In this document: in pieces, positions 1-26,371 of the stretch
Numbering within the stretch: the first letter of the stretch is position 1
Layout: each line of letters opens with the position of its first letter
IMG/VR virus record: IMGVR_UViG_3300034104_000225
Coordinates: 1 to 26,371 of that record
Direction: 5' to 3' (one strand)
From: a virus
Length of the DNA stretch: 26,371 bases
Translations under genes and position numbers: made by a program
The notes under the pieces: model-generated
Database searches by the model: none
Seen by the model: only the letters and a program-made list of their open reading frames with translations
What the model was told of the DNA's origin: nothing

Positions 1-84
1 TCTGGCAATATGTACCCGATGCAGTCCAGACTGATGCCGGACTCACCCTTTTCTGCCCGACCGATCCCGATCGATGGTGAATGA
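1..84 (+). CDS. HNH endonuclease, C-terminal end only (partial)
   Basis: The window opens inside a gene whose last 27 codons (beginning SGNMYPMQS, ending at the TGA at 82-84) align with the C-terminal tail of the complete HNH protein at 15823-16161. The catalytic part lies outside the window, so the identity rests on that alignment and on the same position directly before the terminase. The last residues differ (PIPIDGE here, PVTDSPD in the other copy). The stop overlaps the terminase start region (ATGATG at 81-86). Confidence 0.7.
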   Translation, partial: SGNMYPMQSRLMPDSPFSARPIPIDGE

Positions 85-1502
85 TGGGAGCTCGTAAACA
101 GCCGCTGCGAGGGGCAACCAAAGCAAGGCTTCACAGTCCACTTCTCAAGGGCAAAACTAGAGCCGATGAGGTCGCTAAGATGGCCGAGGATCTAGGCACG
201 CCATTATTACCTTGGCAACGTTGGTTACTTGATGACATGATGCGAATTGACGCTAAAGGGATGTACATTCGCAAGACTTCACTCGTTCTAGTCGCTCGCC
301 AGAACGGCAAGTCTCATCTAGGACGCATGCGAGTAATCTGGGGACTCTTCTATGGAGGTGAGCATAAGCATCTGATCATGTCCTCCAACCGAGCCACAGC
401 CCTCATGACCTTCCGAGAGATTGCTTGGATCATTGAAAACGCGCCTCACCTTAAGGCAGGCACTAAGGCGATCAGATACGCCAACGGCGGAGAACGAATA
501 GAGCTACTCAATGGAGCAACGCTCGACCTCGTATCTGATACGCGAGATTCATCTCGTGGACGCACCGCAGATTTTCTTTGGATCGATGAAGTTCGAGAGA
601 TCAGCAAGGACGGATACACCGCCGCGATCCCTACTACTCGCGCAAGACCTAACGCGCAGACGCTACTTACATCTAACGCAGGCGACGCCTTTTCCGAAAC
701 CCTCAACACGCTAAGAGAGCGAGCCTTATCAGCCCCTCCTAAGTCTTTCGGGTTTTACGAATACAGCGCACCGCAGTACAGCAAGATCACAGACCGCAAC
801 GGCTGGGCGATGGCTAATCCAGCGCTTGGCTACACCATAACGGAGGAATCACTTGAGGAAGCTGTCGCTACTAATAAGATTGAAGACACTAGAACAGAGC
901 TTCTATGTCAATGGATTGATTCTCTGCAAAGTCCGTGGCCTCATGGCGTACTTGAGGCAACCTCCGATGCCACGCTCCAAATTCCGATCGGTGGTTATAC
1001 AGTCTTTGGCTTCGATGTATCTCCTTCTCGCAGGAATGCAAGCCTCGTTGCTGGTCAGATTATGGGTGACGGAAGAATCGGAGTCGGGATCCTCCAGACG
1101 TGGGAGTCGCAAGTCTCGGTCGATGATCTAAAGATTGCAGCAGAGATCAAAGCGTGGGCTGATCAGTACCGGCCAAAGATGATCTGTTATGACAAGTATG
1201 CAACACAATCAATCGCAGAGCGCCTTGCCAATGCAGGGCAGATCATTCAGGATGTATCAGGTCAGCAGTTCTATCAGGCTTGCTCGGACTTACTGGACGG
1301 ACTGGTTAATTCTAGGGTTGTTCATAACGGGCAAGAAGAGCTGATTAAACAGATGAACAATTGCGCCGCTAAAGTCAATGATTCAGCCTGGCGAATCGTA
1401 AAGCGTAAGAGCGCTGGCGATATTTCTGCACCGATTGGCTTAGCGATGGTTGTATCTATGCTACTTAAGCCACAACAGATAGCGCGTATCTACACGGAAT
1501 GA
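81..1502 (+). CDS. terL: Terminase large subunit (unit A)
   Basis: ATP-driven DNA packaging motor and genome-cutting nuclease acting at the portal vertex. The N-terminal ATPase has a Walker A-like motif VARQNGKS at about residues 71-78, Walker B FLWIDE ending in D169-E170, and a coupling-type TSNAG near 198-201. The C-terminal RNase H-like nuclease starts at FGFDVSPS (D312) with further acidic candidates at D371 (CYDKY) and D447 (SAGDIS). The 473-aa length is normal for TerL. Two starts are possible, ATG 81 and ATG 84; ATG 84 aligns with the GTG start of the unit B copy. No small terminase gene precedes it; an HNH gene does. The protein is about 90% identical by eye to the copy at 16161. Confidence 0.95.
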   Translation: MMGARKQPLRGATKARLHSPLLKGKTRADEVAKMAEDLGTPLLPWQRWLLDDMMRIDAKGMYIRKTSLVLVARQNGKSHLGRMRVIWGLFYGGEHKHLIMSSNRATALMTFREIAWIIENAPHLKAGTKAIRYANGGERIELLNGATLDLVSDTRDSSRGRTADFLWIDEVREISKDGYTAAIPTTRARPNAQTLLTSNAGDAFSETLNTLRERALSAPPKSFGFYEYSAPQYSKITDRNGWAMANPALGYTITEESLEEAVATNKIEDTRTELLCQWIDSLQSPWPHGVLEATSDATLQIPIGGYTVFGFDVSPSRRNASLVAGQIMGDGRIGVGILQTWESQVSVDDLKIAAEIKAWADQYRPKMICYDKYATQSIAERLANAGQIIQDVSGQQFYQACSDLLDGLVNSRVVHNGQEELIKQMNNCAAKVNDSAWRIVKRKSAGDISAPIGLAMVVSMLLKPQQIARIYTE

Positions 1503-1515
1503 CCTAGATGTAGTG

Positions 1516-1530
1516 TATAATTGCGACCTA
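1516..1530 (+). promoter_or_regulatory. Putative leaderless promoter (-10 box) of the portal gene, unit A
   Basis: A perfect TATAAT (1516-1521) lies in the short terL-portal gap, 8 bases before the portal ATG at 1530. That spacing would put the transcription start at or within about two bases of the ATG. There is no Shine-Dalgarno sequence before this ATG. The 14 bases TAGTGTATAATTGC are identical before the unit B portal (17582-17587, also 8 bases from the ATG), although flanking sequence differs. I see no clear -35 box. Leaderless genes are common in Actinobacteria (established knowledge); the promoter call is inference. Confidence 0.55.
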
Positions 1531-2627
1531 TGGGTCTATTCGATCGTAAGCCAAAAGTACTAGAGGCTCAACGTGCGCCGCAGATTATGGGCGATAGCAT
1601 CAACGCGATTTACAATTTTACCTTCCCAGTTATATCTCGGCGCGATGCTATGAGTGTTCCAGCTCTCAAGCGATGCCGTGATCTACTCTGCACAGTCGGA
1701 ACTATTCCGCTTGAGTATAAGAAAAAGTCTACAGGCGAAGAAGTTGCTGCTCCTCGATGGGTGCATCAACTCTCAAAGTCACAGCCTCAATTTGTGACCC
1801 TTTCATGGCTAGTAGACAGCCTTCTCTTTTATGGTCAAGCCTTTCTTGAAATAGTCGAGGTTTATTCTGAGGATCTTCGAGGCGCATCATTCGAGTGGGT
1901 ATCTAATACTCGCGTTACTTTCGATCTTGATATTCATAACACTTTCGTCACTCAGTATTACGTCGATGGATCACCCCGGCCAATGTCAGGACTCGGATCA
2001 CTTGTCACATTTCAGGCGTTTAATGAAGGAATTCTAAACACAGGATCTCGCACAATTCAGAGTGCAATCGATGTACAGAAGGCCGCCGCGATTGCGGCGG
2101 GGACACCGATGCCGACGGGTTTCATTCGGAATTCTGGCGCTGATCTTCCTCCAGCAGAAGTTCAAGGACTCCTCGCATCATGGAAAGCGGCTCGACAAAA
2201 TCGCAGTACCGCATATCTCACTTCTACTCTTCAATACGAATCGGTAGGATTTTCGCCTAAGGACATGATGTACAACGAAGCGATTCAGAATCTTGCGACT
2301 GAAATTAGCCGTCTATGCGGAGTGCCAAGTTATTATCTTTCAGCCGATCAAAACACATCGATGACATATTCCAACATCCTCGATGAGCGTAAGCAACTCG
2401 TAGCCTTAGCGTTCCAGCCGTACATTTCTGCAATCGAAACACGCCTAAGCATGGACGATATATCTACGGCTGGGCATTATGTAAAATTCGATCTCGATGC
2501 TTCCTTCCTGCGTGTAGAGCCTATGGAAAGACTTCTCGTACTCGAGAAGATGTTATCCCTAGGACTTATTAGCACAGAGCAAGCGATGGAGATGGAAGAT
2601 TTAACACCTAACGGAAGTGATGACTAA
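1530..2627 (+). CDS. Portal protein, HK97-like (unit A)
   Basis: Forms the ring at the DNA-entry vertex, to which the terminase docks and the tail connector later attaches. The 365-aa product resembles the phage portal/HK97 gp3 family: an N-terminal region with MSVPALKRCRDLL near residue 45, then LVDSLLFYGQAFLE and LPPAEVQGLLASWK, a region rich in FSPKDMMYNEA, and ADQNTSMTYSNI towards the C terminus. I use ATG 1530 rather than the upstream TTG at 1521, because the TATAAT box and spacing conserved with unit B point to 1530. The stop overlaps the capsid-fusion start (TAATG at 2625-2629). Similarity to the copy at 17596 is roughly two thirds by eye. Confidence 0.93.
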   Translation: MGLFDRKPKVLEAQRAPQIMGDSINAIYNFTFPVISRRDAMSVPALKRCRDLLCTVGTIPLEYKKKSTGEEVAAPRWVHQLSKSQPQFVTLSWLVDSLLFYGQAFLEIVEVYSEDLRGASFEWVSNTRVTFDLDIHNTFVTQYYVDGSPRPMSGLGSLVTFQAFNEGILNTGSRTIQSAIDVQKAAAIAAGTPMPTGFIRNSGADLPPAEVQGLLASWKAARQNRSTAYLTSTLQYESVGFSPKDMMYNEAIQNLATEISRLCGVPSYYLSADQNTSMTYSNILDERKQLVALAFQPYISAIETRLSMDDISTAGHYVKFDLDASFLRVEPMERLLVLEKMLSLGLISTEQAMEMEDLTPNGSDD

Positions 2628-4177
2628 TGCAGACCCTATACATTGAAGCATCCAGTATCGAATGCAGCGAAGATCGCCGCGAGATTTCTGGCAAGATCGT
2701 TCCACTCGGTACAGGCGAGATCGGTCAGACTAATCTTGGCGCTTATACGTTCGAGTCTGGCTCTATCGAAATCGAAGATGTCACAGCTATTAAATTATTT
2801 AGCCAGCATGACATGAAGAAGCCAATCGGGCGCATGACAGCTAGCGAAACAAAAGAAGACGGCATCTATGCGACTTTCAAGTTATCGCGCTCAAGTGCCG
2901 GTACTGACGCTCTCGTCATGGCCAGCGAAGGCCTCGTATCTGGCCTATCAATCGGTGCAGAGATCATCTCATCAAAGCCATCACGCGACGGGCACACAGT
3001 CGTAACAGCGGCTAAATTAAAAGAAGTTTCTCTAGTAACTGAGCCAGCCTTTAAGTCTGCTCAAGTATTAGAGATCGCAGCGGAAGAAGCGCCAGCCGAA
3101 GCCGTAGAAGAAACCCTACCTACAGAAAGCGAGACAGTCGTGGAAGACACAACAGTCGAAGCAACACCAGTAGAGGCTGCGGCTGTAGAAGCTGCTCGTC
3201 CTACTGTACAAGCGATGGTGTATTCAACACCTCGAATCGAAGTTACAAAGCGTAACTATCTTGAAAACACACTAAAGGCTAACCTCTTTGGTGACGATGA
3301 TTCTCGTCAATGGCTTCGCGCTGCTGACAACGATCAGACAACAGGTGCAGGATTTATCCCAACACCACAAAGCACACAGCTACTTAACTTCCTTTCTAAC
3401 GCAGATCGTCCGATGATTGATTCAGTCAGCCGTGGAACAATGCCAGAATTTGGAAAAACCTTCGAGTTGCCTAAGATTACTGAGGTTCCTCTAGTAGATC
3501 AGATCGATGAGAATGGTGCAGTAACAGACTCACAGCTTGAAGCATCATTCATCACGGTTACAAAGAAGTCATTCAAGGGTCGCGCAATTACTACCCTCGA
3601 ACTTCTTACAAACTCAACACCTGCATTCCTAGACGAGCTTCTTGTCCAGATGGAATACGCTTACGCAAAAGATACTGAAGAATTTGTAACTACAGCTATC
3701 CAAGGCGCAGGAACACTTAACGCAACAGCACAGGCAAACAGCGCCGATGGATTGCTTAAGTATGTTTCATCTGCTGCAGCTGCAGTATATTCAGCATCAC
3801 TTGGTTTTGGTCGCAACATGGTAGTTACACCAGAACAATGGGCTAATATCATGTCATACAACGATAATGGCCGTCCAATCTACATCGCAGCTAATCCACA
3901 AAACGCAGGCGGAGCACTTTCACCTGCATCACTTCGTGGAACAGTAGCAGGCCTTGATCTTCGTGTATCTCGTTACATGAAGGGATCAGGCGGAGTCGGT
4001 ACAGCCGATTACTCAATGGCTGTTATCAACCCAGACGCTTACACATGGTACGAGGGTGCTCGTCAGCAACTTCGCACAAATGTTAACTCAGACGGAACTG
4101 TAGACATTCTACTCTTCGGTCAGGGAGCACTTGCCACTAAATTAGCGGCTGGCGCAAACTGGTTCAACTTCACCTAA
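2627..4177 (+). CDS. Prohead protease - major capsid protein fusion (unit A)
   Basis: One 516-aa reading frame carries two functions usually encoded separately. Residues about 1-145 resemble the HK97-type prohead protease (peptidase family S78): likely catalytic His61 in SQHDMKKPIGR, Ser108 in SGLSIGA, and the typical LKEVSLVTEPAF strand near 131-142. Residues about 150-195 form an acidic Glu/Thr/Ala/Val-rich linker. From about residue 200 (PRIEVTKRN) comes an HK97-fold major capsid protein, with GRPIYIA and NPDAYTWYEG late in the domain. The linker is much shorter than the roughly 100-residue HK97 delta scaffold domain. Proteolysis in or just after the linker is presumably needed to free mature capsid subunits. 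The capsid half is strongly diverged from unit B. Confidence 0.92.
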   Translation: MQTLYIEASSIECSEDRREISGKIVPLGTGEIGQTNLGAYTFESGSIEIEDVTAIKLFSQHDMKKPIGRMTASETKEDGIYATFKLSRSSAGTDALVMASEGLVSGLSIGAEIISSKPSRDGHTVVTAAKLKEVSLVTEPAFKSAQVLEIAAEEAPAEAVEETLPTESETVVEDTTVEATPVEAAAVEAARPTVQAMVYSTPRIEVTKRNYLENTLKANLFGDDDSRQWLRAADNDQTTGAGFIPTPQSTQLLNFLSNADRPMIDSVSRGTMPEFGKTFELPKITEVPLVDQIDENGAVTDSQLEASFITVTKKSFKGRAITTLELLTNSTPAFLDELLVQMEYAYAKDTEEFVTTAIQGAGTLNATAQANSADGLLKYVSSAAAAVYSASLGFGRNMVVTPEQWANIMSYNDNGRPIYIAANPQNAGGALSPASLRGTVAGLDLRVSRYMKGSGGVGTADYSMAVINPDAYTWYEGARQQLRTNVNSDGTVDILLFGQGALATKLAAGANWFNFT

Positions 4178-4193
4178 GAAACACACTAAGTCG

Positions 4194-4224
4194 CTGGCAG
4201 GGTAGTGCCCTTCTACCCTGCCAG
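4194..4224 (+). terminator. Intergenic hairpin after the capsid gene (unit A)
   Basis: A perfect 12-bp stem, CTGGCAGGGTAG (4194-4205) and CTACCCTGCCAG (4213-4224), encloses the 7-base loop TGCCCTT. TCTTTAGAAAGGAT follows and holds the Shine-Dalgarno of the next gene. The unit B hairpin at 20274-20304 has the same stem length and loop but three base pairs changed on both sides, so the RNA structure itself is under selection. The tract after it is weak for a classic terminator, so partial termination, attenuation or stabilisation of capsid mRNA are all possible. Confidence 0.8.
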
Positions 4225-4244
4225 TCTTTAGAAAGGATAAGAGC

Positions 4245-4817
4245 ATGGCATTGACAACAGTTGCAGAGCTTCGCACCGCCCTAGGCGTTGGCACTCTCTA
4301 TACTGATGCAGTCTTGCAACAAGTCTGCGATGCAGCAGACAACGTTCTCTTGCCTTTTCTATGGAAGAATCAGCAATACATAATTGCTCACGGCAATACG
4401 GGCACAGTAGGAACACTTTATTTTGATCAGGATATCCGCGAGTATTTCTACGTTGGACAATCTGTAACAATCTCAGGTGCAGGTAATCGCTACAATGGGA
4501 CTAAGACAATTACAAAAGTCGATACTCGTTCATTCAACGTAACTACGGCTCACACTAGCGACAATCCACGCCACACAGTTGAGCCTTATGGCATCGCTGC
4601 AGTTGAAACTTACACAGACTATTCAACGATTCCAGCAATCCAAGAAGCCTCACTCATGATTTCAGTAGATATCTGGCAGTCACGTCAGGCACCTTCATCT
4701 GGCGGAGTGACGATCGATGGTTATCAGCCTTCACCTTATAGAATGGGCAATACACTTCTAGCACGTGTTCGTGGATTGCTTGCACCTTATCTCGATCCGA
4801 GATCGATGGTGGGCTAA
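4245..4817 (+). CDS. Head-tail adaptor, gp6-like, with inserted beta domain (unit A)
   Basis: Likely the connector ring protein that docks under the portal. The helical start (residues 1-40, MALTTVAELRTALGVG then LQQVCDAADNVLLPF) and the C-terminal part (about 115-190, PAIQEASLMISVDIWQSRQ then YRMGNTLLARVRGLLAPYLD) fit the gp6-like connector family, and position after the capsid agrees. Between them (about 45-112) lies a stretch with YVGQSVTISGAG and NGTKTIT, resembling small beta-sandwich modules of phage structural proteins. At 190 aa it is longer than a plain adaptor of about 100 aa. The shell is almost identical to unit B, the insert is not. ATG 4245 has an AGAAAGGA Shine-Dalgarno. The stop overlaps the next start. 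Confidence 0.75.
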   Translation: MALTTVAELRTALGVGTLYTDAVLQQVCDAADNVLLPFLWKNQQYIIAHGNTGTVGTLYFDQDIREYFYVGQSVTISGAGNRYNGTKTITKVDTRSFNVTTAHTSDNPRHTVEPYGIAAVETYTDYSTIPAIQEASLMISVDIWQSRQAPSSGGVTIDGYQPSPYRMGNTLLARVRGLLAPYLDPRSMVG

Positions 4818-5206
4818 TGGCCGCCATTTCAACACTACGCGCAGGTATCGCAGCAGCTCTAGTCGATAACACTAAATACTCAGTATTCGCGTTCCCACCG
4901 GCAACACCTATCGCTAACAGCGTCATCATTGCGCCAGCAGATCCGTACATCACGCCGTCTAACGGATGGCATGCCACTATCTCGCCTATGGCGAACTTTA
5001 CTATTTCCGTCATGGTTCCCCTTCTAGATAACGAAGGCAACCTTAACGGGATCGAGGATAATGTAGTCCGAGTCTTTAATAAACTCGCTACATCCTCATA
5101 CACCTATAACGTCACAGAAGTATCGGCTCCAGCCGTACTAAGTGCCGTCTCTGGTGATCTTCTAACCTGCAATATCAATATCTCAGTCCTAACGAGTTGG
5201 AGCTAA
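4817..5206 (+). CDS. Tail completion / tail terminator-like protein (unit A)
   Basis: A 129-aa protein between the head-tail adaptor and the tail tube, where siphoviruses encode head closure, tail completion or tail terminator proteins. It begins MAAISTLRAGIAAAL, has a conserved centre (DPYITPSNGWHATISPM and MVPLLDNEGNL) and ends INISVLTSWS. The mixed alpha/beta pattern and length fit a tail terminator-type protein, but no motif proves it. It starts inside the stop of the previous gene (TAATG), implying translational coupling. The unit B copy is about 90% identical by eye, fitting a part that contacts other conserved tail components. Confidence 0.6.
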   Translation: MAAISTLRAGIAAALVDNTKYSVFAFPPATPIANSVIIAPADPYITPSNGWHATISPMANFTISVMVPLLDNEGNLNGIEDNVVRVFNKLATSSYTYNVTEVSAPAVLSAVSGDLLTCNINISVLTSWS

Positions 5207-5207
5207 A

Positions 5208-5309
5208 ATGTCCGAGTGGGAAAAAGAGCAAGAAGCCTTCCTGATCAAGATCGGGCAGGTAGCACCATCAACACCTAAGCCAGCACCTACAAAGAAAGAC
5301 GAGGAATAA
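5208..5309 (+). CDS. Conserved 33-aa peptide between tail completion and tail tube genes (unit A)
   Basis: A 33-codon frame beginning MSEWEKEQEAFLIKIG and ending KKDEE, with a charged amphipathic N-terminal half and a Pro/Thr/Lys-rich C-terminal half. It starts two bases after the previous stop and ends four bases before the tail tube ATG, filling the gap exactly. The same peptide is at 21294-21395 with identical length; differences between copies are mostly synonymous or in the C-terminal half. That makes it a real gene. Function unknown; it could be a small structural or assembly factor, or serve in translational coupling to the tail tube. Confidence 0.7.
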   Translation: MSEWEKEQEAFLIKIGQVAPSTPKPAPTKKDEE

Positions 5310-5313
5310 TCTC

Positions 5314-5733
5314 ATGGCTGTATTTCTAAATAACAAGGTCGGCGTGAAGATTAACACAGTCGATCTTTCAGACCACGTTACATCTGTAACACTTAACCGT
5401 ACTTTCGACGAGCTCGAAGTGACAGCAATGGGCGATGGCGGACATAAGTTCGTCAAGGGTCTTGAGGCATCATCAGTCACAATCGACTTCCTTAATGACA
5501 CAGCAACCGCCAACGTCCTAGCGACATTGCAAGCTGCATGGGGAACTAACGTCACAGTAGTACTCCTACAGGAAAAGGGAACCGCCGTCGGCGCGACAAA
5601 CCCTCTCTACACGATGACCTGCCTAATCAACGGCACTACAGATATTAACGGCGCAGTCGGTGATATCGGTACACAGAGCCTTACATTTAACGTCTCTGGT
5701 ACAGTAGCGGTTGCCACAACAGGCACATTCTAA
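5314..5733 (+). CDS. Major tail tube protein (unit A)
   Basis: Probably the subunit polymerised into the siphoviral tail tube. The 139-aa product starts MAVFLNNKVGVKINTVDLSD and is rich in beta strands with short turns, including VTLNRTFDELEVTAMGDGG and VTIDFLNDT, the usual style of small Ig/tube-fold tail proteins. It sits directly before the two frameshifted tail assembly chaperones, the position of the tail tube gene in long-tailed phages. The unit B copy at 21400 is over 90% identical by eye, and the start-site region is identical at nucleotide level for more than 50 bases. Confidence 0.85.
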   Translation: MAVFLNNKVGVKINTVDLSDHVTSVTLNRTFDELEVTAMGDGGHKFVKGLEASSVTIDFLNDTATANVLATLQAAWGTNVTVVLLQEKGTAVGATNPLYTMTCLINGTTDINGAVGDIGTQSLTFNVSGTVAVATTGTF

Positions 5734-5756
5734 AACACTAAACAAAGGGGCACAGC

Positions 5757-6014
5757 ATGGCGAAGTTAATAGTCACACTAGCGGATAACACAATAACCGA
5801 GATCGAGATAACTCCTCGCCTCGAATACGCGTTCGAGCTATATGCTAAAAAGGGATTTCACAAAGCGTTTCGCGATGATGAAAAGCAGTCAGATGTCTAT
5901 TGGCTTGCATGGGAAGGCCTTAGGTTAAGTGGAACCACAGTCAAGCCATTCGGCGCAGACTTTCTCGATACCCTAAAGAGTGTCGAGGTTGCTGAGTCTG
6001 ACCCTTTGGCCTAA
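5757..6014 (+). CDS. Tail assembly chaperone, short form (G-like, unit A)
   Basis: An 85-aa protein made when the ribosome does not shift frame. It begins MAKLIVTLADNTITEIEITP and contains FELYAKKGFHKAF and DVYWLAWEGLRLSG, the pattern of small chaperones between the tail tube and the tape measure. In lambda, gpG and gpGT bind the tape measure protein and help the tube assemble around it (established knowledge). GGGGCAC before ATG 5757 could act as a weak Shine-Dalgarno. The slippery heptamer CCCTTTG lies near the 3' end, and frame 0 ends two codons later at 6014. Confidence 0.85.
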   Translation: MAKLIVTLADNTITEIEITPRLEYAFELYAKKGFHKAFRDDEKQSDVYWLAWEGLRLSGTTVKPFGADFLDTLKSVEVAESDPLA

Positions 6015-6181
6015 TCGGACGGGATAGCATCCACTATCTCATAGCTCGCTTGAGCATTGAGACGGCTATCCCTCCACAATCTTTAATCGATTTAGACCCT
6101 ACGATGCTTCAGATGATTCTGAAGGCGTTGAAGGATAGAGCAAAGGAGCAGAGCGATGCCTACAGAGCTAAAAGGCGCTAG
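5757..6181 (+). CDS. Tail assembly chaperone, -1 frameshift fusion (GT-like, unit A)
   Basis: Reading frame 0 to the Leu codon at 6006-6008 and then the -1 frame from 6008 to the TAG at 6179-6181 gives a 141-aa fusion (84 + 57 residues). The -1 frame is open from the slip site and encodes GKD/GRD-type sequence followed by HYLIARLSIETAIPPQ, LIDLDPTMLQMILKALKDRA and KRR. No independent start codon is evident for it. The same extension with the same length exists in unit B, mostly with synonymous or conservative changes, so the frame is translated. The extension runs 26 bases into the next gene. Confidence 0.88.
6002..6008 (+). promoter_or_regulatory. Programmed -1 frameshift site CCCTTTG (unit A)
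   Basis: The heptamer reads C CCT TTG in frame 0, matching the X XXY YYZ rule for tandem -1 slippage: CCT re-pairs as CCC and TTG as TTT. It lies two codons before the frame-0 stop. The same heptamer occurs at the equivalent codon in unit B (22088-22094), although the bases just after it differ. I did not identify a convincing downstream stem or pseudoknot by eye. Confidence 0.85.
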
Positions 6182-6659
6182 CGAACTCCGTCGAGCGATG
6201 AAGAGGTTCTCACCTGATCTCGATAAAGAGACTCGTGATGAGATGGTTGAATTTTTAAAGCCATTGGTTAAAAAGGCTCGTGGCTTCATGCCCTCTAATG
6301 CTGACATGCCCTCAGGCTTTGTTGGAACGGCCGAGTCTGGTCAGTTCCCTAAGTATGACGCTGGAATAGCACGTCGAGGCCTAGGTTATAAACTTACACC
6401 GACAAAGCCTAATCGTCAGGGTTGGGTGCAGACTGTATCGATCCATAATAAGACCGCTGGTGGAGTTATCTATGAGTGGGCTGGTCGTAAGTCGAATAGC
6501 AAGTTCGTGTCTAATCTGCCTGGTCAATTAGCAGGATCGGGCAAGATGGCAGGTCGCGCAATGTTTAAGGCATACAAAGAAGATGAAGGCAGAGCCAAGG
6601 TTGGCGTTATTAAGGCGCTTGAAAAGGCTGCCGCTAAGTTTAATGGGAGAGTAAGTTAA
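6156..6659 (+). CDS. HK97 gp10-like / minor structural protein (unit A)
   Basis: A 167-aa basic protein starting MPTELKGASELRRAMKRFSP, with a conserved KPLVKKARGFMPSN segment, YKLTPTKPNRQGW, IHNKTAGGVIYEWAGRKS and the C-terminal KMAGRAMFKAYKEDEG. The helical N terminus with a 'KARGF.P' motif and the later beta part suggest the HK97-gp10-like family of neck/tail components. Its place between chaperones and tape measure is unusual for that family, which more often precedes the tail tube, so a tail-assembly role is also possible. It starts inside the frameshifted chaperone extension and its stop overlaps the tape measure start. The unit B copy is about two thirds identical. Confidence 0.6.
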   Translation: MPTELKGASELRRAMKRFSPDLDKETRDEMVEFLKPLVKKARGFMPSNADMPSGFVGTAESGQFPKYDAGIARRGLGYKLTPTKPNRQGWVQTVSIHNKTAGGVIYEWAGRKSNSKFVSNLPGQLAGSGKMAGRAMFKAYKEDEGRAKVGVIKALEKAAAKFNGRVS

Positions 6660-11865: not shown

Positions 11866-11872
11866 TTTTTAC

Positions 11873-12910: not shown

Positions 12911-12935
12911 ATTTTCCCCTTTGGGGTATGAGATG

Positions 12936-14900: not shown

Positions 14901-14946
14901 TGATGTATTTCACAATTAACTTATGTCCGAATTGGGGTAGTTTAAT

Positions 14947-17579: not shown

Positions 17580-17581
17580 TG

Positions 17582-18717: not shown

Positions 18718-20258
18718 AAGAGATGCTCACATTCTCAGCAGAACTCACAGCAGATGCGTCAGAGCGCACAATTTCAGGAAAGATAGTTCCTTTTAACGGC
18801 GAGGTCGGTAATACATCCGCTGGCGCCGTAGTCTTTGAGCGTGGCGCGATCAATATCGCTGACTCATCCAAAGTGAAGCTCCTACTGGAGCACGATCCAA
18901 AGCAGCCGATCGGCCGCGCTCAATTCTTCAATGAAACCGAGGACGGCATCTTTGCATCGTTCAAGATTTCAAAATCATCCCGTGGCACCGATGCACTCAT
19001 CGAAGCCTCAGAAGAACTCCGTACTGGTCTTTCAGTTGGAGTTATGGTCAACGCAGCAAAGCCAAAGAACGGCGTGCTGTACGTATCGAGCGCCGACTTG
19101 CTCGAAGTAAGTTTGGTTCAGGCAGCAGCCTTTAAGTCTGCGGCCGTAACCGATATCGCGGCATCTGAAGATGAAGCCGTTGAAGAAACCCTACCAACAG
19201 AAAGCGAGACAGCCACAGTGGAAACCACTCCAGCAGTCGAAGCAACACCTACAGTTGAGGCTGCCGCAGTTGAAGCTGCTCGCCCTGCTGTAACAGCAAT
19301 GGCTTACACAAAGCCAAGAATCGAAGTAACAGCTGCAAAGTACGCTGAGCAGTCAATCCGCGCAGCACTTGGCGATGACTCAGCACGTCAATACATCGCA
19401 GCAGCAGACAACACAACCGACAACGCTGGTCTCGTACCAACACGTCAACTTTCAGAGATCATCAACCCTCTCGGTACAACTATCCGCCCATCAATCGATG
19501 CAATCTCTCGTGGAGTGCTTCCTGATGCAGGTATGACTTTCGAGATTCCTAAGATTACTGCAATGCCTACAGTTGCAGTTGCAGCTGAAGACGCAGCATT
19601 CTCTAACACAGATCAGAACTCAGCATTCCTAAGCGTAAGCGTTGCAAAGTACGCAGGACAACAGGTCTTCTCAGTAGAATTGCTAGATCGTACATCTCCA
19701 GCATTCTTTGATGAACTCGTTCGCAACATGGCAGCAGCTTATGCCAAATCAACTAACGCAGCAGTAAACGCAGCACTTATCACAGGTGCAACAGTTGATG
19801 CTACAGGCGTCGCAACTTACCCAACAGCAGCAGAACTCCTCGGAATTGTTGCTCGCGGATCAGCTTCTGTTTATGGAGCAACAGCAGGACTTCCAAATCC
19901 ATTCGCTCGCAACATGATCGTATCGACAGGACAATGGTCTAACATCATGTCTCTCAACGATGCAGGACGTCCAATCTACACAGCTTCACAGCCAATGAAC
20001 GCAGGCGGAGTTGTAGCACCTACATCTCTCACAGGTAACGTTGCAGGTCTTAACCTCTACGTAGATCCTACAAACGCAGGAGATGGCGATGGAACTATCC
20101 TCATCGTTAATCCAGATGCTTATACATGGTACGAGTCACCAACATACCGCCTACGCGCTGAATCAACAGCAGCGGGACAGGTAACAATCGGTTACTACGG
20201 ATACGGCGCAATCGCAACTAAGGTTGCAGCAGGCGCATTCCAGAACAACAAGTCGTAA
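18714..20258 (+). CDS. Prohead protease - major capsid protein fusion (unit B)
   Basis: A 514-aa fusion with the same architecture as unit A: S78-like protease (about 1-145; likely His60 in LEHDPKQPIGR and Ser107 in TGLSVGV), acidic Glu/Thr/Ala linker (about 150-195), then the HK97-type capsid from PRIEVTAAKY. The capsid half is only moderately similar to unit A, but the linker and the boundary EAARPxVxAM are nearly unchanged, marking a probable processing region. Late capsid motifs GRPIYTASQP and NPDAYTWYES are retained. It is followed by the unit B hairpin. Confidence 0.92.
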   Translation: MKEMLTFSAELTADASERTISGKIVPFNGEVGNTSAGAVVFERGAINIADSSKVKLLLEHDPKQPIGRAQFFNETEDGIFASFKISKSSRGTDALIEASEELRTGLSVGVMVNAAKPKNGVLYVSSADLLEVSLVQAAAFKSAAVTDIAASEDEAVEETLPTESETATVETTPAVEATPTVEAAAVEAARPAVTAMAYTKPRIEVTAAKYAEQSIRAALGDDSARQYIAAADNTTDNAGLVPTRQLSEIINPLGTTIRPSIDAISRGVLPDAGMTFEIPKITAMPTVAVAAEDAAFSNTDQNSAFLSVSVAKYAGQQVFSVELLDRTSPAFFDELVRNMAAAYAKSTNAAVNAALITGATVDATGVATYPTAAELLGIVARGSASVYGATAGLPNPFARNMIVSTGQWSNIMSLNDAGRPIYTASQPMNAGGVVAPTSLTGNVAGLNLYVDPTNAGDGDGTILIVNPDAYTWYESPTYRLRAESTAAGQVTIGYYGYGAIATKVAAGAFQNNKS

Positions 20259-20273
20259 CCACCCCTTAAGTCA

Positions 20274-20304
20274 CTGGCGGCGGAGTGCCCTTCTCCGCCG
20301 CCAG
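20274..20304 (+). terminator. Intergenic hairpin after the capsid gene (unit B)
   Basis: Perfect 12-bp stem CTGGCGGCGGAG (20274-20285) and CTCCGCCGCCAG (20293-20304) around the same loop TGCCCTT as in unit A. Relative to unit A, stem positions 6, 8 and 10 changed as A-T to G-C, G-C to C-G and T-A to G-C, each fully compensated. The flank TCTTTAGAAAGGAT is identical. It lies between the capsid stop and the adaptor ribosome site. Confidence 0.82.
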
Positions 20305-20322
20305 TCTTTAGAAAGGATCAGC

Positions 20323-20901
20323 ATGGCACTCACAACAGTTGCAGAACTTCGCACGGCTCTAGGCGTAGGTACTCTCTATGCTGACGCAACCCTGCAACAA
20401 GTCTGTGACGCTGCGGATAACGTCCTGCTCCCTTTCATCTGGTCTAACACTCTTTCAATTATTGGGCATAGCAACACAGCCACCACAGGCACTTCTTATT
20501 TTGAAGATTCAATCGTCGATGTCCTTTACGTTGGCGAGACAGTAGTGATTACAGGCGCAGGATCGAAGCACAATGGATCAAAGACCATCACGGGTCGCGA
20601 CACTCGATCCATCACTTATGCGATTACAGGCAACAATAACGCTGTGAAGCCATACCACCCAATTAACCCGTACGGCCTACTCGCCGCAGATACTTATCTA
20701 GACCCTTCAACAGTGCCAGCCATTCAAGAAGCCGCACTTATGATCTCCATCGACATCTGGCAAAGCCGTCAAGCTCCATCATCGGGCGGCGTAACCATCG
20801 ATGGATATCAGCCAAGCCCTTATCGGATGGGTAACACACTCCTCGCGAGAGTCCGCGGCTTGCTTGCTCCATATCTTGATCCGAGATCGATGGTGGGCTA
20901 A
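20323..20901 (+). CDS. Head-tail adaptor, gp6-like, with inserted beta domain (unit B)
   Basis: A 192-aa homologue of the gene at 4245. Residues 1-38 and the last 65 or so are nearly identical to unit A. The inserted middle (about 45-115; YVGETVVITGAG, HNGSKTIT) is strongly diverged with a 2-residue length change. ATG 20323 has the AGAAAGGA ribosome site. An upstream frame extension to 20224 would cross the hairpin and is rejected. The contrast suggests the helical shell is fixed by contacts with portal and tail while the insert is exposed. Confidence 0.75.
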   Translation: MALTTVAELRTALGVGTLYADATLQQVCDAADNVLLPFIWSNTLSIIGHSNTATTGTSYFEDSIVDVLYVGETVVITGAGSKHNGSKTITGRDTRSITYAITGNNNAVKPYHPINPYGLLAADTYLDPSTVPAIQEAALMISIDIWQSRQAPSSGGVTIDGYQPSPYRMGNTLLARVRGLLAPYLDPRSMVG

Positions 20902-21290
20902 TGGCCGCCATCTCAACACTTCGCGCAGGTATCGCAGCAGCTCTCACAGATAACACAAAGTACTCTGTATTTAGCTTCCCACCTGCAACACCTATCGCCA
21001 ACAGCGTCATAGTCGCGCCAGCAGATCCCTACATCTCACCGTCTAACGGTTGGCATGCATCGATCTCGCCAATGGCTAACTTCGTCATTTCCGTCATGGT
21101 TCCCTTGCTTGATAATGAAGGCAACCTTAACGGGATGGAGGATAACATCGTTCGGGTCTTTAACCTGCTCGCTGCATCTTCCTACACCTACAACGTCACA
21201 CAGGTCTCGGCTCCAGCCGTACTCAGTGCCGTCTCTGGTGATCTACTAACCTGCAATATCAACATATCCGTACTTACGAGTTGGAGCTAA
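20901..21290 (+). CDS. Tail completion / tail terminator-like protein (unit B)
   Basis: A 129-aa homologue of the product at 4817, about 90% identical by eye and of equal length, beginning MAAISTLRAGIAAALTDN and ending INISVLTSWS. It starts within the adaptor stop (TAATG). Substitutions are mostly conservative. Function as for unit A is inferred from position between adaptor and tail tube. Confidence 0.6.
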   Translation: MAAISTLRAGIAAALTDNTKYSVFSFPPATPIANSVIVAPADPYISPSNGWHASISPMANFVISVMVPLLDNEGNLNGMEDNIVRVFNLLAASSYTYNVTQVSAPAVLSAVSGDLLTCNINISVLTSWS

Positions 21291-21293
21291 ACC

Positions 21294-21395
21294 ATGTCCG
21301 AGTGGGAAAAAGAACAAGAGGCCTTCCTGATCAAGATCGGGCAGGTAGCACCATCAACACCAAAGCCAGTAACTACTAAGAAAGAAGAGGAATAA
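21294..21395 (+). CDS. Conserved 33-aa peptide (unit B)
   Basis: A 33-codon frame beginning MSEWEKEQEAFLIKIG and ending KKEEE, in the same place as 5208-5309. The first 24 residues are identical to unit A, with synonymous changes at nucleotide level; changes concentrate after Pro24. Stop 21393-21395 lies four bases before the tail tube ATG. Conservation of length, frame and N terminus shows it is translated. Confidence 0.7.
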   Translation: MSEWEKEQEAFLIKIGQVAPSTPKPVTTKKEEE

Positions 21396-21399
21396 TCTC

Positions 21400-21819
21400 A
21401 TGGCTGTATTTCTAAATAACAAGGTCGGCGTGAAGATTAACACTGTCGATCTTTCTGATCACGTTACATCTGTAACTCTTAACCGTACCTTCGATGAGCT
21501 CGAAGTAACAGCGATGGGCGATGGCGGGCACAAGTTCGTTAAAGGCCTCGAAGCATCATCTGTCACAATTGACTTTCTCAATGACACAGCGTCTGCAAAC
21601 GTCCTAGCGACTTTGCAAGCTGCATGGGGAACGAACGTCACTATCGTTCTACTTCAAGAAAAGGGCACCGCAGTATCTGCGACTAACCCTCTCTACACGA
21701 TGACATGCTTGATCAACAACACGACAGATATTAACGGCGCAGTCGGTGACCTCTCAACTCAGAGCCTCACATTCAACGTCTCTGGTACTATCGCAGTTAC
21801 AAGTACAGGCACATTCTAA
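21400..21819 (+). CDS. Major tail tube protein (unit B)
   Basis: A 139-aa homologue of the product at 5314, over 90% identical by eye, with the same start MAVFLNNKVGVKINTVDLSD and the same length. Such similarity next to strongly diverged capsid and tape measure genes suggests either strong constraint or recent sharing of this segment. A 57-base identical tract spans its start codon in both units. Confidence 0.85.
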   Translation: MAVFLNNKVGVKINTVDLSDHVTSVTLNRTFDELEVTAMGDGGHKFVKGLEASSVTIDFLNDTASANVLATLQAAWGTNVTIVLLQEKGTAVSATNPLYTMTCLINNTTDINGAVGDLSTQSLTFNVSGTIAVTSTGTF

Positions 21820-21842
21820 GAAACTAAACAAAGGGGCACAGC

Positions 21843-22103
21843 ATGGCAAAGTTAATAGTAACAATGGCAGACAACGTAGTTCACGAGATCGAGATCACTC
21901 CTCGCCTCGAGTACGCGTTCGAGTTATATGCGAAGAAAGGCTTTCATCGTGCGTTTCAAGAAGATCAGAAACAGAGCGATGTCTATTGGCTTGCATGGGA
22001 AGGACTGCGCCTTAATGGGGTAACAGTCAAACCATTCGGGCCTGACTTCCTTGACACGCTCAAGGGCGTGGACATTGGTGACTCAGCCCCTTTGGAAAGC
22101 TAG
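21843..22103 (+). CDS. Tail assembly chaperone, short form (unit B)
   Basis: An 86-aa frame-0 product starting MAKLIVTMADNVVHEIEITP with FELYAKKGFHRAF and DVYWLAWEGLRLNG, homologous to the one at 5757. The 3' end differs (SAPLES instead of SDPLA) but keeps the slippery heptamer. GGGGCAC precedes the ATG in both units. Confidence 0.85.
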   Translation: MAKLIVTMADNVVHEIEITPRLEYAFELYAKKGFHRAFQEDQKQSDVYWLAWEGLRLNGVTVKPFGPDFLDTLKGVDIGDSAPLES

Positions 22104-22267
22104 GGAAGGATAGTCTCCATTACTTGATCGCTCGTCTGAGCATCGAGACGGCTATCCCTCCGCAAGCATTGATAGATTTAGATCCGTCAATGTTGGAGAT
22201 GATACTGAAAGCACTACAAGACAGAGCAAAGGAGACGCGAGATGCCAACAGAAGTAAAAGGCGCTAA
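21843..22267 (+). CDS. Tail assembly chaperone, -1 frameshift fusion (unit B)
   Basis: Frame 0 to Leu at 22092-22094 and then the -1 frame from 22094 to the TAA at 22265-22267 gives 141 aa (84 + 57), exactly the length of the unit A fusion. The extension reads GKLGKD, then HYLIARLSIETAIPPQ, LIDLDPSMLEMILKALQDRA and KRR. Its residues are well conserved with unit A while codons differ, which proves translation of this frame. It overlaps the next gene by 26 bases. Confidence 0.88.
22088..22094 (+). promoter_or_regulatory. Programmed -1 frameshift site CCCTTTG (unit B)
   Basis: C CCT TTG in frame 0, two sense codons before the frame-0 stop (22101-22103). It is at the same distance from the start codon as in unit A. 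The heptamer is unchanged whereas bases 3' of it (GAAAGCTAG against GCCTAATCG) are not, so the slip site itself is selected. Confidence 0.85.
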
Positions 22268-22751
22268 CGCACTCCTCAAAGCTCTTAAGAAGTTCGCTCC
22301 AGACCTTGCTAAAGAAACTCGTGATGAGCTGGTGGGATTCCTCAAGCCGATTGTAAAAAAGGCGAGAGGATTCCTACCCTCTAACGATGAGATGCCTTCT
22401 GGATTCGTCAAGCACGAAGTCAAGACCGCAAGGTTCCCAATGTACGACGCAGCAGAAGCACGCCGTGGAATTGGCTACAAACTAACACCGACCAAGCCTA
22501 ATCGCCAAGGCTGGTCTTCTTCTGTTTCAATTCATAACAAGACAGCAGGCGGCGCGATCTTTGAGACCGCAGGCCGTAAGTCTGGCATTACTGGTCGATT
22601 CAGTCCTCAGATGCCCGGCACTTTAGCAGGCGGCGGCAAGATGGCAGGCCGCGCAATGTTTAAGGCATACAAAGAAGACGAAGGCAAAGCCAAGGCCGCA
22701 ATTGTTAAAGCCCTAGAGGCTGCAGCTATTAAGTTCGCGAGGAGTAAGTAA
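22242..22751 (+). CDS. HK97 gp10-like / minor structural protein (unit B)
   Basis: A 169-aa homologue of the product at 6156: MPTEVKGANALLKALKKFAP, KPIVKKARGFLPSN, YKLTPTKPNRQGW, IHNKTAGGAIFETAGRKS and KMAGRAMFKAYKEDEG are aligned blocks. The segment between ESG/EVK (about 55) and the first YKL motif, and that after RKS, vary. It starts within the frameshifted chaperone extension and its stop overlaps the tape measure ATG. Confidence 0.6.
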   Translation: MPTEVKGANALLKALKKFAPDLAKETRDELVGFLKPIVKKARGFLPSNDEMPSGFVKHEVKTARFPMYDAAEARRGIGYKLTPTKPNRQGWSSSVSIHNKTAGGAIFETAGRKSGITGRFSPQMPGTLAGGGKMAGRAMFKAYKEDEGKAKAAIVKALEAAAIKFARSK

Positions 22752-24448
22752 TGAGTAACCTACTAGTCTCCCTCGTTGCAGAATGGAAAGGTCAAGCGGC
22801 ATTTAAGAAAGCCGACACCGCTACAGACAAACTTAACAAAGGCGTAAAGAAGCTAGCCCGTAATTTAGGTTTGGCTTTAGGTGGCGCAGGGTTAGCCAAG
22901 TTTGCTAAAGATTCAATAAAGGCATTCGCAGATGAAGAGAAGTCTGTAGCGATGCTATCCAATGCCCTAGAAAACTTAGGCATGGCTAAGCAAGCCGATC
23001 AGATTTACGCCTACATCGATGCTCTACAGATGGCTACGGGCGTCTCAGATGACGACCTACGTCCAGCCTTTCAGAAACTAGCGACAGCTGGATTGAATGC
23101 GGCAGATGCTCAAGCAGTCCTCGCACTTGCCCTAGATGTCTCAGCTGGATCAGGTAAGGATCTCAATACTGTCTCGGTAGCACTTTCTCGTGCAGTAACG
23201 GGTAACACGACAGCCCTTGGCAAGTTAGGCGTAGGTCTTACTAAAGACGAACTTAAGACGATGGATCTAAATGACATCATGCTTAAGCTTGCAGACACTT
23301 ACAGAAACTCAGCTTCAAAGGCTGCCGATACATTCGCGGGCAAGATGGCACGGCTAAGCGTAGCCATCGACACGGCTAAAGAATCTATAGGTAAGGGTCT
23401 TGTTGATGGCCTTATGCTTGCCACAGGATCTGCATCGATCGATGATCTCCAGAGCAAGATAGTTAATCTAGGAACTAACTTAGCGGCGATCTTTGTAGCT
23501 ACAGGTAACTTGATATATGAGAATTGGTTCTTAATCAAGCAGCTCGGTATTGCTTTGATCGCTGCCTTTACAGCTGCCAAGGTTTATGCGGGAGTCATCG
23601 CCTTCATTGCGCTAGTAAAGAAACTTAAGGTCGCTTTGGCAGCCCTAAGAGCGACAGGCTTTGCCGCAGCCGTGGCAACCATGGCAGCCATTAACCCCGT
23701 CGGTGCAGTCTTTGCCGCTGGTGCATTAGTCACCGCAATCATCGCGGGCAATAAAGTCCTCGATAAGTTCAACGAAAGCAAATCAGAAGCGGAGAAGCCA
23801 TTTAAGGCACCGGACTTCTCTGGCTTGACAACTCCTAATTACGGCGATGCAAAGCGTTTAGAGGATCTTAAGATCAAAGCCGCCAAGGCTCAGGAGAAGG
23901 CTGCTAAAGAATCTATAAAATTGCAGAAACTTTCTAAGGTGTTTGATCTTAGTTACATTCAGATTTACGCAGCGTTACAGGGACAACTTTCAGAAGAAGA
24001 AAGAACTCGCGTCCGTTTGCAGTTAGCCTTGCTCGAGGAGAACGTAGGCGCGGCAGATCATCTATCTAAGAAACTGGCAGATAGCCAAGGCAAGACTTCG
24101 ATGCTTTCGACTTTCTTGCGTACCTTGCCAGATGCTAAGAACCCATTCGAGAAGTGGGGCGACTATCTAAAGGCAATCGAGCTAGAAGCTAAACGCATCG
24201 GAGCGATGAGCTTTACTACAGCCGCAGCCGATGGCACCGCTGCACAACCTTTCGGCGTAGGTGGAGCGTTAGGCCTTGAAGACCTGCGTGGGCAGAGTGC
24301 AGCTGTGCCACAGATAAACATCACCGTAGAACTCGACGGCCAGACAGTCGGTGGAGCAATCCGTGACGGTCAGATTAACGACTCACTCTCTGGATCATTT
24401 AATCAAGTAAATCGAGGTTCAGGATTTAAAGGCGCCATAGCAATATGA
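22751..24448 (+). CDS. Tape measure protein (unit B)
   Basis: A 565-aa tape measure, 36 residues longer than in unit A. The first 220 residues align with unit A (KGQAAFKKADTATDKLNK; GKGLVD near 214-219). Then comes a block absent from unit A: residues about 262-333 are strongly hydrophobic (LIKQLGIALIAAFTAAK, VIAFIALVKK, NPVGAVFAAGALVTAIIAG), like membrane-inserting segments of other tape measures. A Lys/Ala coiled coil (about 370-440) and the conserved C terminus (INITVELDGQTVGGAI, NDSLSGSF) follow. Stop and next start overlap as ATGA. Confidence 0.88.
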   Translation: MSNLLVSLVAEWKGQAAFKKADTATDKLNKGVKKLARNLGLALGGAGLAKFAKDSIKAFADEEKSVAMLSNALENLGMAKQADQIYAYIDALQMATGVSDDDLRPAFQKLATAGLNAADAQAVLALALDVSAGSGKDLNTVSVALSRAVTGNTTALGKLGVGLTKDELKTMDLNDIMLKLADTYRNSASKAADTFAGKMARLSVAIDTAKESIGKGLVDGLMLATGSASIDDLQSKIVNLGTNLAAIFVATGNLIYENWFLIKQLGIALIAAFTAAKVYAGVIAFIALVKKLKVALAALRATGFAAAVATMAAINPVGAVFAAGALVTAIIAGNKVLDKFNESKSEAEKPFKAPDFSGLTTPNYGDAKRLEDLKIKAAKAQEKAAKESIKLQKLSKVFDLSYIQIYAALQGQLSEEERTRVRLQLALLEENVGAADHLSKKLADSQGKTSMLSTFLRTLPDAKNPFEKWGDYLKAIELEAKRIGAMSFTTAAADGTAAQPFGVGGALGLEDLRGQSAAVPQINITVELDGQTVGGAIRDGQINDSLSGSFNQVNRGSGFKGAIAI

Positions 24449-25689
24449 CCCTGCCAGCCACTATCTCGGTATCTTTCGACTTTAGCCAAGGCGCTACCTT
24501 TGGCCTTGGTTTCGTTATCGGCGACGATAAATACGGAGTTATTGGCACCGGTACATTCGCAGCCTCAGCCGTACCTGAACCAGTAGTCGATCTTAGTGAT
24601 GTCACTCGATCCATTAAGATCAGCCGTGGCCGCAACATCATGCGCGACACCTACGAGTCCGGTAGCTGCACCGTCCGAGTCTTAGATCCTAATTCTTACT
24701 TCAATCCTCAGAATGTTTCTAGTCCCTATTTTGGCTATCTGACTCCATTAAGAAAGATCCGTGTCGCTGCTACGACAGACACAGCGCAGGAGTTCTTATT
24801 CTCTGGATACGTCGATACCTATAAGTATTACTATCCAACAGGCCAAGAGATTGGCTACGTAGACATCATCTGCAATGATGCCTTTAGGCTCTTTCAAATG
24901 GCCAACGTGGCAAGCATAACAGGGGCAACGGCTGGCCAGACTACAGGCACCCGTATCACTAAGATCCTCGATCAGCTCTCATTCCCTACATCGATGCGAA
25001 TTACAGACACAGGATCCACAACAGTCCAGGCAGATCCGGGCACAGCTCGAACATCCCTTGCAGCCCTCAAGGCGGCAGAGTTTGCAGAACAGGGCGCATT
25101 CTTTATGTTGCCAGATGGCACAGCAGAGTTTAAGGATCGCGCTGATGTCGTGGCATCTCTAGCGGCTACCCCTATCGAGTTCAATCAGACAACAGGGATT
25201 CCGTACTCAGACCTTAAATACGCTTTCGATGATAAGCTCATTATCAATCAGGCCAGCATGACACGCGTTGGCGGCACAGCACAGACCGCCGTGAACGTTG
25301 ATTCATCGGCTAAGTATTTCCCACATGGCACCACAGTCACAGAGATGATTCCAGAGACAGATGCTCAAGTCTTAGACATCGCCAAGATATACGTGGCAAC
25401 TAGAGCAGAGACTACGATCCGCATCGATGCCATGACTGTCGATCTACTTGATACAGACGTCCCAACGGATACCATGATCGGGCTCGATTACTTTGATAAC
25501 GTGAAAATCACTAACGTCCAACCAGACGGCAGTACAATCGTGAAGACCTTGCAGGTGCAGGGCTTGGCATGGGATATCACCCCAAACTCTATGAAGTGCA
25601 CAGTGACAACACTGGAACCAATAGTCGAGGGATTCATCATCGGATCATCGACTTACGGTATAATCGGACAATCCATACTGGGATACTAG
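24445..25689 (+). CDS. Minor tail protein (distal tail / baseplate hub, unit B)
   Basis: A 414-aa homologue of the product at 8248 with identical length. MTLPATISVSFDFSQGATFG, GRNIMRDTYESGSCTVRV, FLFSGYV and EGFIIGSSTYGIIGQS are shared; the region near 10-60 and the middle vary. The last stretch contains TATAAT at 25659 as in unit A. It links the tape measure to the lineage-specific adhesion gene that follows. Confidence 0.8.
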   Translation: MTLPATISVSFDFSQGATFGLGFVIGDDKYGVIGTGTFAASAVPEPVVDLSDVTRSIKISRGRNIMRDTYESGSCTVRVLDPNSYFNPQNVSSPYFGYLTPLRKIRVAATTDTAQEFLFSGYVDTYKYYYPTGQEIGYVDIICNDAFRLFQMANVASITGATAGQTTGTRITKILDQLSFPTSMRITDTGSTTVQADPGTARTSLAALKAAEFAEQGAFFMLPDGTAEFKDRADVVASLAATPIEFNQTTGIPYSDLKYAFDDKLIINQASMTRVGGTAQTAVNVDSSAKYFPHGTTVTEMIPETDAQVLDIAKIYVATRAETTIRIDAMTVDLLDTDVPTDTMIGLDYFDNVKITNVQPDGSTIVKTLQVQGLAWDITPNSMKCTVTTLEPIVEGFIIGSSTYGIIGQSILGY

Positions 25690-25699
25690 GAGACAAACA

Positions 25700-26371
25700 A
25701 TGGCTGCAGGCTTAGGATATAAAGAGTTCTCGACGGGTGACGTATTAACCGCCGCAGACGCTAACGGCTATCTAGCCTCTCAGGTAGTGATGGTCTTTGC
25801 TAGTGCGGCAGCTCGCACATCTGCAATCGCCTCACCTCAAGAAGGCATGATCTCCTATCTCAAGGATACGAACTCAACCGAGTATTACTCAGGCTCGGCT
25901 TGGGTTGCTATCTCAGGCGGAGCTAGTGGATTGGTGCTTATTACTACACTAAGCCCTTCAGGCGTTACAGAAGTAACAGCTGACTCGATCTTTACTTCAA
26001 CTTATGAGAATTACTTGATCGAGATCGCACTAGATCAGACGGCTAACTCTGTTCTATATGCTCAACTGCGATCAGGCGGAAGTAACTTAACTTCTGCCAC
26101 GTATACATACGATGCCGTTGGCGGTCCCGCACAAACAGCCCAAACAGCCTGGGAAATTTCAGCCAACACTGGAAGCGGTTGCACTTTAGTAAGTGCTTTA
26201 ACTTTATTTCGACCACAACTAGCAAATCCAACTTTCGGCGTCGGTTCACGAATGGCAAGCGTGGACAATTTTGCGCAGCAATACGGATACATTAACACAA
26301 GCGCAGCAGCTTATGACGGGCTTAGAATTTTTGGAAGTTCTGGAAATATTACAGGCAAGATCAGAATCTAC
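25700..26371 (+). CDS. Tail fibre-like protein, 3' end outside the window (unit B)
   Basis: Open from ATG 25700 (AGGAGA ribosome site 25688-25693) to the window edge, 224 codons. The N terminus (STGDVLTAADANGYLASQ) resembles the start of the 129-aa unit A protein and of many phage fibre or appendage proteins, and EGMISYLKDTNSTEYYSG, then SAWVAISGG, is a phrase typical of fibre N-terminal domains. The rest, beta-rich and Ser/Thr/Gly-rich (SANTGSGCTLVSALTL), has no counterpart in unit A. It is probably the receptor-binding or fibre shaft protein of the second lineage. End and full length unknown. Confidence 0.6.
   Translation, partial: MAAGLGYKEFSTGDVLTAADANGYLASQVVMVFASAAARTSAIASPQEGMISYLKDTNSTEYYSGSAWVAISGGASGLVLITTLSPSGVTEVTADSIFTSTYENYLIEIALDQTANSVLYAQLRSGGSNLTSATYTYDAVGGPAQTAQTAWEISANTGSGCTLVSALTLFRPQLANPTFGVGSRMASVDNFAQQYGYINTSAAAYDGLRIFGSSGNITGKIRIY

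Follow-up and report, generated by a model that had tools for sequence, protein, structure and literature searches.

Two small siphophage genomes very probably joined end to end at a common cohesive end site in a 26-kb viral contig, and the HNH endonuclease gene that runs across the site

Layout of the window

The stretch of DNA considered here, referred to below as the window, is the entire IMG/VR record IMGVR_UViG_3300034104_000225 (G000, 26,371 bp), in which two related units of a small siphophage lie head to tail on the plus strand. Unit A (1-16077; 16,064 bp plus a 13-nt overhang) is the complete genome of a freshwater mini-phage bounded by a cohesive end site (cos), and unit B (16078-26371) covers the left part, about 10.3 kb, of another phage that is related but distinct, truncated by the end of the contig. 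The 13-nt 3' cohesive overhang CCCCCCTGTCTTT (16065-16077, plus strand) stands joined between them, flanked by the right end of A (...GTTCAC) and the left end of B (TCTGGC...), and a gene for an HNH endonuclease (15823-16161, plus strand) runs across it. Very probably, the window arose when the ends of two different small siphophage genomes, each a phage in its own right, were joined at a cos that is common to both.

The window matches itself at an offset of about 16.08-16.20 kb, at which 12 families of direct repeats are found: position 1 corresponds to 16078 (62 nt, 90% identity), BLAST alignments link 1-2437 to 16078-18521 (75%), 4187-6636 to 20267-22728 (77%) and 8248-9515 to 24445-25713 (72%), and gene order is kept across 10-11 genes. 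The tandem repeat described in the first-pass annotation of this DNA is thereby confirmed, as is the openness of all reading frames in both copies. At the amino acid level, the identity between the units is 93% for the large terminase (TerL), 62% for the portal, 50% for the protease-capsid fusion, 75% for the adaptor, 91% for the tail terminator, 94% for the major tail protein, 79% for the next gene, 69% for g8, 33% for the tape measure and 77% for the minor tail protein. The substitutions had been called mostly synonymous, which holds for TerL, the major tail protein and the tail terminator, with ratios of non-synonymous to synonymous change (pN/pS) of 0.10, 0.09 and 0.13, but not for the capsid (0.57) and the tape measure (0.67): selection is strong on TerL and the major tail protein, and weak on the capsid and the tape measure. 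The longest exact run common to A and B is at most 57 nt, so that a direct jump of an assembler from A to B needs a small k. What was overlooked at first is that positions 1 and 16078 are the same physical terminus, the boundary of the repeat being the cos and not an arbitrary edge.

Termini and the 13-nt cohesive end

The termini were located from the ends of related IMG/VR contigs, with a left-arm set of 80 contigs retrieved with the terminase of A and a right-arm set of 75. Exactly at the base homologous to window positions 1 and 16078 begin 25 of the 80, which places the left physical terminus of unit A, the first base past the cos overhang, at position 1 (plus strand), and 24 of the 75 stop exactly at the base homologous to 16064. 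For random contig ends on a 16-kb genome, the chance of either cluster is below 1e-80 (about 1e-85 for the left ends). Right-end contigs thus stop one base before CCCCCCTGTCTTT and left-end contigs start one base after it. The 13 nt are exact in 40 of the 41 cos-crossing contigs that were not selected for them, the remaining one differing by a single base. Moreover, three complete linear contigs (G012, 16,253 bp; G011, 16,438 bp; G023, 15,607 bp) run exactly from left to right terminus without the 13 nt, a loss from both ends that is what trimming of a 3' overhang yields.

The polarity of the overhang can also be read from contigs of other metagenomes in which the ends carry tails: purines ahead of the 13 nt at left ends (AGAGAGGAAA, GGGAAGG, AAGGA), and pyrimidines past the 13 nt at right ends (TCTCT, TCTTCTCCC). 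In one of them (L126, 7381-7415) the pyrimidine tail is followed at the contig end by the Illumina adapter AGATCGGAAGAGC. The contig G015 carries the 13-nt overhang at both of its ends. Some single-strand library kits add tails to 3' ends, and the pattern of tailed ends that include the 13 nt fits such kits, so that the overhang is read as 3'. We infer that phages of the A/B family have 13-nt 3' cohesive ends. The features of a cos-type phage are found together: unique fixed termini, ends that are complementary (as judged indirectly, from contig ends) and a large terminase. As a side observation, L126 also means that a library adapter remains inside an IMG/VR record.

Contigs of more distant relatives, namely L280, L289 and L299 (the last being G005), terminate on a right-end motif of similar sequence, TTTTTTGA...ACAC, or close to it; TerL identity is 30-33% for G005 and for the record of L280. 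The right terminus may therefore be older than the A/B family, to judge from these sequences.

The HNH gene across cos

The gene that crosses cos, which had also escaped the first-pass annotation, has its likely start at ATG 15823 (the frame is open from GTG 15766) and encodes an HNH domain (PF01844, 3.9e-11). In the window it is a hybrid, with the codons up to 16077 coming from A, and 16078-16158 and the TAG stop from B. The 3' tail that belongs to A itself lies at 1-84 (plus strand; 27 codons), its TGA at 82-84 overlapping the start of TerL, and when the right end of A is joined to the left end of A the frame is open to this stop. Among 107 distinct cos-crossing junctions, most of which were retrieved by a search with the overhang, none interrupts the frame within the 13 nt, and in 104 it extends upstream without a stop over 60 codons or more, which neither of the other two frames ever does. 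The metal-binding and catalytic residues C47, C50, D58, H59, N74, C79, C82 and N83 are invariant; next comes TPPVF, whose last four residues, PPVF, are specified by the overhang and so owe part of their invariance to selection by overhang.

On the left arm, the tail of the gene comprises 25-28 codons in nearly all junctions, and in 98 of them the stop of the tail shares bases with a start codon at the position of the terminase. Counted from the first base of the stop, this start lies two bases downstream in 61 cases and one base upstream in 37. Read in frame, the tail has a pN/pS of 0.32-0.68, compared with 0.72-1.9 when read in the other frames and with 0.21 in the right-arm part of the gene, values which point to a tail that is translated and under weak constraint. 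In an AlphaFold model, residues 28-95 form a confident HNH domain and the tail is disordered; past residue 100, the block mean of pLDDT (the per-residue confidence score) falls from 60 to 44. Among solved phage proteins, the HNH endonuclease of GVE2 is the nearest (5h0m; profile match 1.7e-11, predicted fold with a root-mean-square deviation of 1.6). The catalytic domain is whole on the right arm, with the stop supplied only by end joining. The HNH motif and the location of the gene, which spans cos and abuts TerL, agree with those of packaging-associated HNH proteins of the HK97 gp74 type.

Directly upstream lies the gene of a second HNH protein (15390-15836, plus strand; PF01844, 2e-13; PHROG HNH, 2.8e-22), whose N-terminal extension may be a helix-turn-helix. 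There is no small terminase gene between cos and TerL (start of TerL in A at 81), whereas one or more genes stand at this place in RRH1 and in the phages of clusters EE and AN discussed below; recognition of the DNA may here fall to the two upstream HNH proteins.

During a normal life cycle, each genome would have its own two ends joined, giving a circle or a concatemer, and this joining would complete the HNH gene and set its stop over the start of the terminase. HNH and TerL would then probably be translated together from the joined DNA, and the nuclease would help to cut cos, so that cleavage at packaging would split its own gene again. As the overhang and the frame are nearly invariant, the ends of different co-infecting phages might also join and give working hybrid HNH proteins. 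The complete scheme, in which the HNH gene of an abundant family of freshwater mini-phages is split in the virion, rebuilt on joining and recut at packaging, HNH and terminase are coupled only from joined DNA, and co-infecting phages yield a working hybrid nuclease, is advanced here as a tentative and rather unlikely proposal. A limited search of the literature returned no description of a cos inside an HNH gene, and nothing relevant on a gene across cos.

Units A and B apart, and single units among relatives

In metagenome 3300042507, A and B are found on separate contigs: L004 (3300042507_000329) is 100% identical to window 83-11336 and L199 (3300042507_000016) is 99.99% identical to 19229-26371. 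A further contig, L217, is 99.9% identical to 9323-15163 of unit A. The contig L199 extends 839 bp past the end of the window, and its endolysin region is 72% identical to that of A. Each relative consists of a single unit, 15.3-16.6 kb in length, and occurs either as the complete linear contigs mentioned above or as a circle closed on itself across cos, with exact terminal repeats of 127 (G013 and G019), 98 (G014), 72 (G016) and 28 nt (G010). These self-closed forms indicate that a right end normally pairs with the left end of the same genome.

The window might instead be one heritable unit, a real phage or provirus with two structural modules or two genomes in tandem, as the open frames and the purifying selection on the genes of both units would allow. 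Against this, the junction falls exactly on the packaging terminus, the relatives are single units, A and B are found apart, and the partners at cos vary; moreover, no integrase is present among the window proteins scanned and no attachment site (att) was found. Such a unit is thus extremely improbable. The two structural modules put forward at first find no support, as no other record carries a fixed pair, and neither do tandem related prophages, given the lack of integrase and att. There is likewise no evidence of a packaged or inherited double genome of 26-32 kb.

Heterologous joins and the origin of the junction

Five other contigs (G027, G002, G008, G039 and G006) change from one unit to a different one at cos. 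The alignable parts of G027 (29,664 bp) are about 65% identical. Most telling are two contigs of metagenome 3300011335, G006 and G039, whose right ends agree at only 77 of the last 150 positions and which continue through cos into one common foreign left end, identical at 61 of 61 bases. That a single left end is found behind two right ends unrelated to each other, within one sample, shows the partners to be exchangeable, and joining is promiscuous, whether by annealing and ligation of sticky ends or by an assembly path. The position of the junction exactly at a family-wide cos, together with the same kind of join in other contigs, makes a random mis-join improbable. The merging of two phages of about 16 kb in assembly, which had been suggested at first, therefore stands as regards its outcome, since complete single units exist and A and B occur apart, but probably not as a random event; a heterologous concatemer came nearer the truth than was then thought, the junction lying exactly at the 13-nt 3' cohesive end.

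Two further records were considered as examples of cos joins and rejected. The first, G004 (L296-L297, 24,694 bp), is an inverted-repeat contig without cos, and the second, G005 (20.7 kb), is only distantly related, has a single terminase gene and resembles the family at its right end. As to G004 itself, it holds a long imperfect inverted repeat (80-86%) with two related phage arms head to head, and is probably another chimeric contig.

To judge from contig termini, each phage would have a linear virion genome of about 16 kb with identical 13-nt 3' cohesive ends, and any right end of the family can consequently pair with any left end. The right end of A would have paired with the left end of B through CCCCCCTGTCTTT, and the contig would have run on into B. 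We consider it somewhat likelier that sticky ends annealed or were ligated physically, be it in the DNA extract, during library preparation or inside a co-infected cell, than that the path is purely computational. In either case, A and B remain separate phages.

Several points weigh against a physical join. The linkage of the right end of A to the left end of B is known from the contig sequence and not from single molecules, and the junction stretch 15164-19228 has no near-identical match in any other fetched record; exact searches with the right end of A gave no match, and those with the left end of B gave only relatives about 82-84% identical, while a portal search gave L336 at 90%. Furthermore, the right end of A could equal that of B over the length of a k-mer, in which case the path from A to B would be computed by way of the self-junction of B. 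Finally, the last 127 nt of two multi-unit contigs, G001 and G003, repeat exactly a stretch inside the same contig, which is what strain mixtures in a k=127 graph are expected to give, so that some contigs with several units are no true joins.

A pure assembly path, in which the right ends of A and B are identical over at least the k of the assembler and reads of the B self-junction lead the contig from A into B, is accordingly a possibility to be taken seriously, if one that we consider the less probable course of events. One right arm can indeed be found with different left arms: two contigs of different metagenomes, L069 (1-4598) and L174 (1-1200), are identical over the last 1200 nt or more before cos, and their left arms, from cos on, have diverged. 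In the window contig, the left end of A is a dead end, which leaves no competing path through a self-junction of A, and G001 and G003 resemble k=127 strain mixtures. Such a path nevertheless leaves unexplained why G006 and G039 have the same left end behind right ends that are unrelated, and B has already diverged from A at least as far as its endolysin region. A strain mixture behind all multi-unit contigs was rejected, as it fits G001 and G003 but not G006, G039 and G027.

Within the physical joins, an origin in vivo would require that both phages had infected one cell, that their ends had annealed and been sealed by the host ligase, and that the mixed concatemers had then been sampled. The same overhang is present in nearly all relatives, self-closed forms show that joined intracellular DNA may be sampled, and the joined HNH frame is open even in the A-B hybrid. 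Identical products would nonetheless arise in vitro in any DNA extract, and contigs that end at bare termini indicate that much of the sampled DNA is linear virion DNA; an in vivo concatemer is thus unlikely.

Other genes of the two units

The remaining assignments, all on the plus strand, agree with a small siphophage. TerL of A (81-1502, start at 81 or 84; PF20441, PF03354; phrog_9, 4e-67) has its counterpart in B at 16161-17579. It is followed by the portal (1521-2627; PF04860, 4.9e-27; 17587-18717 in B) and by a fusion of prohead protease and capsid (2627-4177; PF04586, 2e-9; 18714-20258 in B), for which small actinophages have matches named 'major capsid and protease fusion'. The major tail protein is encoded at 5314-5733 (phrog_4574, 2e-22; 21400-21819 in B), and a probable tape measure, assigned by position, size and synteny with the tape measure of EE and AN phages, at 6659-8248 (22751-24448 in B). 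The right arm of A also carries genes for a metallo-phosphoesterase (12091-12837; phrog_221, 9e-58) and for a RusA-like or PDDEXK resolvase-type nuclease (14276-14725; phrog_244, 1e-13; PDDEXK_15, 9.9e-6, just under the Pfam cut-off).

Significance

Recognition of the join keeps a 26-kb 'double phage' from entering collections as one genome, and provides a rule for the A/B family, namely that an internal CCCCCCTGTCTTT in a contig signals a possible join of two phages. Furthermore, contig ends in public viral collections can expose cohesive ends and the type of overhang without recourse to reads. The HNH gene, in turn, suggests an idea of packaging control, in which joined DNA alone can make a nuclease gene whole, and the reaction that the nuclease possibly assists severs that gene.

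Host and comparison with known systems

A megablast search of 1-16200 against 50,697 phage records gave no match, and TerL of A is less than 60% identical to that of all known phages compared. The search of GTDB genomes with the terminase of A found no near relative. By the alignment query, a 15.9-kb contig (L334, CAIXTG010000145.1; TerL 60%) is binned in a metagenome-assembled genome of an uncultured actinobacterium, which, together with the actinophage relatives, hints at an actinobacterial host. Very small complete genomes peak at about 15 kb in freshwater, where mini-phages of this size are numerous, and the study of Kavagutti et al. (2019; PMC6802176) describes freshwater miniphages below 15 kb, some of them predicted on Actinobacteria, which A and B may resemble.

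The architecture is that of small actinobacterial siphophages: about 14-17 kb, a fused protease-capsid, an HNH gene at the right end and no integrase. The Microbacterium phages of cluster EE (Noelani, MH399783; Lunatic, MW321655; Paopuvirus, Orlajensenviridae; PMC7302621) have linear genomes of about 17 kb with the same gene order, and share with A and B the protease-capsid fusion, the right-end HNH gene, the absence of an integrase and a C-rich right-end sequence. They differ in that their HNH gene stops about 75 nt short of the right end without crossing it and that two genes stand between the left end and TerL; the capsid fusion matches that of A over 28% of its length only, at about 35% identity, and TerL is less than 60% identical. 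Similarly, the phages of Arthrobacter cluster AN and their relatives (Decurro, KT355471; Kels, ON970580) and the Rhodococcus phage RRH1 (JN116822) are siphophages of 14.3-15.6 kb (PMC5513430) with a fused protease-capsid and HNH as the last gene, but here the HNH gene ends 26-86 nt short of the right end and at least one gene, annotated as the small terminase in RRH1, precedes TerL. On sequence grounds, the A/B phages lie outside the named clusters EE and AN.

A parallel for a gene across the ends is the cultured 15.3-kb Curtobacterium phage Penoan (L331, MZ333133), in which an HNH frame that is not annotated is open across the joined ends of the record (...FFGLDASATPRQHVSFSPPSEQN...) and its stop overlaps the next ATG, as in A and B, on the assumption that the record ends are the true termini. 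The overhang region of Penoan is different and the protein similarity to A is low (capsid 36% over 28%). Finally, the A/B gene resembles HK97 gp74 and the GVE2 HNH endonuclease in that an HNH gene adjoins cos and the terminase; according to a paper citing Kala et al. 2014 (PMC9410871), HK97 gp74 stimulates the cleavage of cos by TerL.

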